From contig SYJQ01000028.1 in NCBI GenBank assembly GCA_005798405.1, positions 1-64,000 of the forward strand: a stretch of DNA of 64,000 nucleotides. Direction: 5' to 3'. The DNA is from Nitrosopumilaceae archaeon (lineage in GTDB: Archaea; Thermoproteota; Nitrososphaeria; Nitrososphaerales; Nitrosopumilaceae). Under the pieces are notes generated by a model that was not told the DNA's origin, ran no database searches, and worked only from the letters and a program-made list of their open reading frames with translations. The translations under genes were made by a program, and so were the position numbers. Below, piece by piece: positions 25,564-56,319 of the stretch (positions are counted from its first letter, which is position 1; each line of letters starts with the position of its first letter).

Positions 25564-25664
25564 TGGCGCCGGGAGGGAGATTTGAACTCCCGTTCCCTTG
25601 CGAGAACGCGCTTTATGGTAAATTATTTCCAGGCGCGCGCCCTACCAGGCTAGGCGACCCCGGC
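25564..25664 (-). tRNA. tRNA-Ser (GGA) with about 14-nt intron at the canonical 37/38 position; CCA encoded
   Basis: RC reads GCCGGGG-UC-GCCU-AGCCUGGUA-GGGC-G-CGCGC-CUGGAA[AUAAUUUACCAUAA]A-GCGCG-long variable arm-GGGAG-UUCAAAU-CUCCC-UCCCGGC-G-CCA. Confidence 0.92.
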
Positions 25665-55598: not shown

Positions 55599-55707
55599 AG
55601 CCCGATAGTCTAGCGGTCAAATAAAAAAAATTTTAGATCAAGGATTCTGCCCTCTGGATCTCAAGAGTGGATAGGCGGAGACGGCAGTTCGAATCTGCCT
55701 CGGGCTA
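55599..55707 (+). tRNA. tRNA-Gln (CUG) with two introns (D-loop 55621-55641; anticodon loop about 55658-55672); no encoded CCA
   Basis: AGCCCGA-UA-GUCU-AGCGGUCAA[21 nt]GGAU-U-CUGCC-CUCUGG[15 nt]A-GGCGG-AGAC-GGCAG-UUCGAAU-CUGCC-UCGGGCU-A; 73 nt after removing both introns. Confidence 0.88.
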
Positions 55708-55719
55708 CTGGAAAAATTA

Positions 55720-56319
55720 CTATCTAGATGCTTGTGCTATTCTTTCTAATTCGTGTTTTTTCTTTACAGATGGGGCATTTGGATCATTAGAAGCTGCTAA
55801 AATAAGCTGCTCTGCCATATGCTCCTCAATTGGTTTTGGATTAGAATAAGTTGCATCTCTTATGGAATCTGCAATAAATTTCAATGCCATGTCAACTCTT
55901 CGGATTGGAGCAACATCCACAGATACATGGTATACAGTGCCACCATACACAATTCTTGTTGTGTCTTCATTTGGTGCAGAAAACTCAATTGCTCTAACTA
56001 GAACCTCAACTGGGTTTTTACCAGTCTTTAATGCAATAATATCAAATGCCACTTTTACTGTATTGAGTACTTTGGTTTTTTTACCAGTCATTCTTCCGGT
56101 GTTTTTTGCATATTTTTTACCAAAGTGCATAACTTTGTTGCATAATCTTTCAACAATGTTCACATCAGCTTTGTTGAATCTTTTTAGTGCTGAACGGCCA
56201 AAGGTGTATGGTAAAATTTGCTTTCTTAATGAAATTGCTGTCTTTAATCCAGGATCTTTGATTTCAATATCAGACATGTCCCATTTTCTAAATAATAGTA
56301 GATTCTTTGTTTCTGCCAA
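55720..56319 (-). CDS. rps7: 30S ribosomal protein S7
   Basis: NKVMHFGKKYAKNTGRMTGKKTKV; VPVEV/RAIEFSAPNEDTTRIVYGGTVYHVSVDVAPIRRVDMAL region; next to S12. Confidence 0.95.
   Translation of the reverse strand: MAETKNLLLFRKWDMSDIEIKDPGLKTAISLRKQILPYTFGRSALKRFNKADVNIVERLCNKVMHFGKKYAKNTGRMTGKKTKVLNTVKVAFDIIALKTGKNPVEVLVRAIEFSAPNEDTTRIVYGGTVYHVSVDVAPIRRVDMALKFIADSIRDATYSNPKPIEEHMAEQLILAASNDPNAPSVKKKHELERIAQASR

Follow-up and report, generated by a model that had tools for sequence, protein, structure and literature searches.

The stretch from position 55599 to 55707 on the forward strand is, we are highly confident, the functional tRNA-Gln(CUG) gene of a Nitrosarchaeum-group archaeon and the only such gene detected in its genome, and it is interrupted by two introns, one in the D-loop and one in the anticodon loop, that would be cut out by the splicing endonuclease EndA (alpha plus beta). 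All position numbers refer to the window, that is, the whole 64,000-nt stretch of contig SYJQ01000028.1 that was analysed; the source assembly has 1.25 Mb and is about 96% complete. The label G000 denotes this host genome and labels of the form L### denote the loci examined. Using a sensitive Rfam scan we obtained an end-to-end match of the 109-nt gene to RF00005 (38.4 bits), in which part of the D-loop and part of the anticodon loop stay unaligned; a fast Rfam scan and ARAGORN in its bacterial setting both missed the gene at 55599-55707. Excision of 55621-55641 and 55658-55672 leaves a 73-nt tRNA with four complete stems, the anticodon CUG and the discriminator A. These are the two inserts and the product length proposed by an earlier sequence-only reading of this DNA, which placed them correctly to the base, and its claim of a tRNA-Gln(CUG) with two introns, one of them in the D-loop, is by far the best reading, supported by intron-less alleles, by covariation and by the splicing and ligation genes of the host. 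Unconstrained folding of the mature 73-nt sequence did not yield the cloverleaf, a frequent outcome with unmodified tRNAs, and this folding was not used as evidence. The gene is laid out as follows.

55599..55707 (+), tRNA-Gln(CUG), interrupted (RF00005, 38.4 bits; conserved across relatives)
55599..55620 (+), exon 1: acceptor 5' strand, U8-A9, D-stem 5' strand and D-loop AGCGGUCAA to A21 (delimited by intron-less alleles, e.g. L030 and L084)
55615..55618 (+), GGUC (G18-G19-U20-C20a), exon strand of the central helix (4/4 pairs in 57 of 58 homologues)
55621..55641 (+), D-loop intron, 21 nt, between A21 and G22: AUAAAAAAAAUUUUAGAUCAA (precisely absent in 42 related genes; helix and hairpin conserved)
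55636..55639 (+), GAUC, intron strand of the central helix, 2 nt ahead of the 3' splice site (folding and comparison)
55642..55657 (+), exon 2: D-stem 3' strand GGAU, U26, anticodon stem CUGCC, and CUCUGG
55654..55656 (+), anticodon CUG
55658..55672 (+), anticodon-loop intron, 15 nt, canonical 37/38: AUCUCAAGAGUGGAU (boundary placed by counting the anticodon stem and by the 37/38 convention)
55673..55707 (+), exon 3: A38, anticodon stem 3' strand, variable loop, T-arm, acceptor 3' strand and discriminator A

The D-loop intron is delimited by natural alleles that lack it. Forty-two genes of the family Nitrosopumilaceae are without exactly this intron and read GG(U/C)CAAGGAT, the predicted spliced product, and all of them keep the anticodon intron. 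Removal of the D-loop intron restores a standard tRNA, identical in layout to these alleles.

Genes were collected by a DNA search, by a pattern scan of named genomes and by sampling other families in the order and the class; the resulting set holds some genomes twice and contains 58-59 distinct D-loop inserts. The DNA search of relatives gave a match in 51 of 61 genomes, the weaker matches outside the family spanning only part of a tRNA-Gln gene, and one 89-nt gene with part of the anticodon arm absent (L154) was left out as truncated. Among the 162 CUG gene records parsed, 113 carry an insert at 21/22, 45 carry none and four carry a D-arm insert at 24/25. In most of Nitrosopumilaceae, presence of the D-loop intron is the normal state; it is found at the same site throughout this family and, within the order, in several further families (L075-L077, L201, L202, L207, L213, L216 and L217). 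It most likely goes back at least to the ancestor of the family, and probably further within the order. Judging from the genes compared, its origin probably lies in the order, because CUG genes of the class from outside the order (L221, L222, L223, L226, L230 and L231) are without it and keep the anticodon intron.

The state of the intron was mapped on a single tree of the neighbouring rps7 coding sequence (about 600 bp), which replaced a first tree built from raw downstream DNA; the latter was rejected since twelve of its rows had non-homologous neighbours and one branch reached 5.66 changes per column. In the host this neighbour is the following gene, whose product we take to be S7.

55720..56300 (-), ribosomal protein S7 gene (rps7), convergent (stop codon at 55720; start approximate)

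On the rps7 tree presence and absence change at least seven times, and at least four of these changes are forced by well-supported branches; N. salaria, in which the intron is absent, pairs with its close relative HKST02, in which it is present, with support of 100/95. Because the intron also occurs in other families of the order, presence is most likely the ancestral state and the changes are most likely losses in the main, precise ones that would have taken place several times in Nitrosopumilus. The count comes from one short gene, from which the tRNA gene may recombine independently, and such recombination could produce the pattern by regains or gene transfers. We consider this unlikely, since the presence of the intron in several other families points to its ancestry and since the absent state is always the identical exact deletion. 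If repeated loss is accepted, the several base-perfect removals of the D-arm intron in Nitrosopumilus, the anticodon intron that is never lost in the sample and the use of a 24/25 site in two families would fit a recurring, position-selective process and not deletion by chance. Examples of such a process are conversion through a precursor that had been partly spliced and reverse-transcribed, and movement of the intron from one tRNA-Gln gene to the other; this we put forward as a tentative suggestion.

Shifted and additional introns were also observed. In two families (f2 and f3) the D-arm intron of Gln(CUG) lies at 24/25, with a CAAG/CUUG helix, and not at 21/22 (L209, L219, L211 and L212). 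The 24/25 site is also the one occupied in the interrupted Gln(UUG) genes from another family (L203 and L204), suggesting that the intron moved between the two kinds of tRNA-Gln gene or that conversion took place between them. Four Gln(CUG) genes, from families f8 (L202 and L213) and f3 (L209 and L219), contain three introns: one near 10/11 with a CGGU/GCCG helix, one in the D-arm and one in the anticodon loop.

Unconstrained folding of the 109-nt transcript produced the GGUC/GAUC helix, a 3-nt 5' bulge (AAA) and an inner hairpin, UAAAA/UUUUA. The D-loop intron has a 4-bp central helix with a 3-nt bulge at each splice site, AA|A on the 5' side and AA|G on the 3' side. For the comparison with homologues, the 3' splice site was located by counting back from the anticodon stem, in order to avoid circularity. 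With the site located in this way, 57 of the 58 distinct inserts pair 4/4 with the exon strand GG(U/C)C exactly 2 nt away from it, and none of the 58 does so at offsets of 0, 1 and 3-7 nt. Covariation is seen between nucleotide 20 and its partner (U-A 21, U-G 12, C-G 25, C-A 0; Fisher p ~1e-7, a value that ignores relatedness). The inner hairpins range from AT-rich to GC-rich and vary in loop and stem length with their pairing retained, the inner helix having a mean of 3.0 bp vs 0.71 in shuffled sequences (maximum 1.10 in 500 shuffles).

Every intact CUG gene parsed carries the anticodon-loop intron, including those from families outside the order, and the 5-bp anticodon stem closes around the insert at the canonical 37/38 position in all 61 distinct variants. 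In the canonical register its central helix, CUCU/GUGG, has 3/4 pairs in the host (C34 lies opposite U) and 4/4 in several relatives. The host thus falls short of a perfect 4-bp helix between nucleotides 32-35 and the intron, which an alpha-beta EndA does not require. An alternative register, CUCU/AGAG with a 6-nt 3' bulge, pairs 4/4 in the host genus and not generally in relatives; mean pairing fails to separate the two registers, and the canonical one was preferred on position. The sequence-only reading had described the motif of this intron as the poorer of the two, in agreement with its 3/4 central pairs, and had called its boundaries less certain; its caution about the motif was justified, yet the anticodon stem, together with the canonical position, gives the boundaries.

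The host genome encodes candidate proteins for the processing of both introns. EndA alpha (178 aa) carries Y116, H124 and K155, and its K35-P36-K37 loop falls opposite K44-P45-R46 of the Aeropyrum pernix enzyme in the alignment; EndA beta (196 aa) is without the catalytic His and without the loop. Genes for the RtcB ligase and for GatE were also found; archaeal relatives of GatE recognise the D-loop of tRNA-Gln. With an alpha protein bearing a crenarchaeal-type loop together with a beta protein, the host EndA is predicted to be able to process relaxed motifs. In previous work the A. pernix-type loop signature was described as mattering for cleavage and as linked to a broad substrate range (PMC12397907), Thaumarchaeota EndA was assigned an alpha2-beta2 composition (PMC4090602, PMC3218864), and relaxed-motif introns were removed efficiently only by (alpha beta)2 and epsilon2 EndA (PMC6379350).

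We infer the cleavage, the ligation, the order of the two splicing events and the argument about the tRNA elbow from these elements. In the precursor, G18-G19-U20-C20a of the D-loop would pair with GAUC of the intron, and the heteromeric EndA (alpha plus beta) would cut on the 3' side of A21 (AA|A) and on the 5' side of G22 (AA|G). The halves would then be joined, most likely by RtcB, and a second pair of cuts at 37/38 would take 15 nt out of the anticodon loop. In mature tRNA, G18 and G19 contact the T-loop to form the elbow. Since these bases would be held by the intron in the precursor, removal of the D-loop intron should precede tRNA function and would be a precondition for it.

Several observations weigh against this account of two spliced introns. 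On the 5' strand of the D-loop motif A14-G15-C16 are unpaired opposite the 3' bulge, between the D-stem and the central helix, so that the outer helix is discontinuous and the motif relaxed. An outer helix abutting the central helix, as in the strict hBHBh' motif (bulge-helix-bulge between two outer helices), is therefore absent, and is not required for motifs of the relaxed kind. Of the bulge-helix-bulge described by the sequence-only reading, the GGUC/GAUC helix, the AAA bulge and the inner hairpin were recovered by folding; the strict two-sided form was not, owing to these three unpaired bases. The folding energy of the single sequence gives a z-score of -1.84, which is weak and uninformative alone; the excess of the D-loop motif over chance is seen in the comparison of homologous sequences and not in this score. 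The shortest D-loop insert, of about 11 nt in a reduced 0.8-Mb genome (L072 in G021), is without an inner hairpin and has 3/4 central pairs, and may be near the minimum length for splicing. The case is moreover built on DNA comparison, cleavage and ligation being deduced rather than read from RNA, and the completeness of the assembly, about 96%, leaves room for another CUG gene.

The insert forms a stable hairpin by itself, and it might accordingly be retained, giving a mature tRNA with an enlarged, hairpin-bearing D-loop from which only the anticodon intron is removed. In that case the elbow bases GG(U/C)C would remain paired to the insert in 57 of its 58 versions, and the 2-nt spacing and the bulges, which fit splicing sites, the close relatives without exactly the insert and the EndA of broad-specificity type encoded by the host all argue for its excision; we regard retention as very improbable.

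In the host genome there is a single CUG gene, and the Gln(UUG) gene (L007), also single, is uninterrupted. A second, intact tRNA-Gln(CUG), which the sequence-only reading had named as a finding that would count against it, was not found in the roughly 96% of the genome covered, and single-contig genomes of relatives gave one CUG match each. Given the separate tRNA-Gln(UUG), wobble could in principle cover CAG codons (PMC6000648), and the interrupted gene might be a decaying pseudogene. None of its stems is disrupted, almost every genome of the family retains the gene, and the mature sequence is strongly conserved as the introns vary; decay would not keep compensatory pairing, and this explanation is even harder to sustain than retention of the insert. 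Errors of assembly or sequencing at the A8 run, the length of which ranges from 5 to 8 among near relatives, are already refuted as the source of the insert by its occurrence in well over 50 genomes, closed ones included, often without the homopolymer.

The tRNA-Gln(CUG) gene is not the only interrupted tRNA gene of this archaeon. Within the window, tRNA-Ser(GGA) (25567-25664, minus strand) has a 14-nt anticodon-loop intron. Several further non-canonical introns are found in the host genome. The initiator tRNA-Met (L255, G000:C28:840-1040, gene at about 890-980; Rfam 29.1 bits, barely at threshold) has a D-loop insert with the central helix AGCC/GGCU (AG|A ... AA|G), and a Leu(UAA)-like tRNA (L254, minus strand, G000:C40:400-580; 16.8 bits, below the Rfam threshold) has both a D-loop insert (CCAA/UUGG, inner hairpin AAGCACAUUGUGCUU) and an anticodon-loop insert. 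An Arg(CCU)-like tRNA (L251, minus strand, G000:C19:112520-112700) contains a D-loop insert of about 20 nt (AGUCAUUUUAGACGCGAAA...), the Glu(UUC) tRNA (L253, G000:C14:123860-124060, outside the window) a T-loop insert of about 16 nt after GGGUUCAAA, and the Val(CAC) tRNA (L050, G000:C4:3-93, minus strand) a variable-loop insert of about 17 nt. Val-UAC (G000 C9:4-78 and C14:198406-198480) and Phe-GAA (C8:15-88 and C25:53-126) each appear as the same gene in overlapping sequence at the ends of different contigs, and are probably unjoined assembly ends and not duplicate genes.

These results indicate that a non-canonical tRNA intron can be kept for long and across an order, and is not only a recent insertion as in Thermoproteales. 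The natural series of genes with the intron present, absent or shifted, in ammonia oxidisers of which some are cultivable, suits the study of intron loss, splicing order and endonuclease breadth. As the fast scans miss tRNA-Gln(CUG), tRNA inventories of these archaea can look incomplete.

Non-canonical introns at D-arm positions 20/21 and 22/23 have been listed before (PMC4090602). The tRNAscan-SE 2.0 paper reports 107 non-canonical tRNA introns among the Thaumarchaeota genomes that it covered, multiple introns per gene and a dedicated covariance model trained on such introns (PMC8450103). In view of that number, of the normal state in the family, of the carriers in other families and of the further introns of the host, the rarity suggested by the sequence-only reading was overstated. 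The tRNA-Gln D-loop intron shares phylum and splice-motif class with the introns of that paper, the consulted part of whose main text has no mention of it, of its order-wide distribution or of its losses; the gene may well be listed in the supplementary tables or in GtRNAdb. Literature searches, with most subscription papers and all supplements outside their reach, found no description of this intron. It is a new or previously unremarked member of the established thaumarchaeal non-canonical introns, and the new points are its order-wide distribution and long conservation, its recurrent clean loss, the displaced 24/25 intron in two families and the third intron near 10/11. The 15-nt anticodon-loop intron resembles canonical 37/38 archaeal tRNA introns in position and anticodon-stem context and differs from them in the host by its 3/4 central pairs, some relatives having 4/4. 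Multi-intron tRNAs of Thermoproteales were reportedly described by Sugahara et al. in 2008. They likewise use D-arm positions, relaxed motifs and an EndA of alpha-beta type (PMC4090602). Unlike the many mutually similar and apparently recently transposed introns of Thermoproteales, the D-loop intron of tRNA-Gln occupies one site, is old and has diverged.
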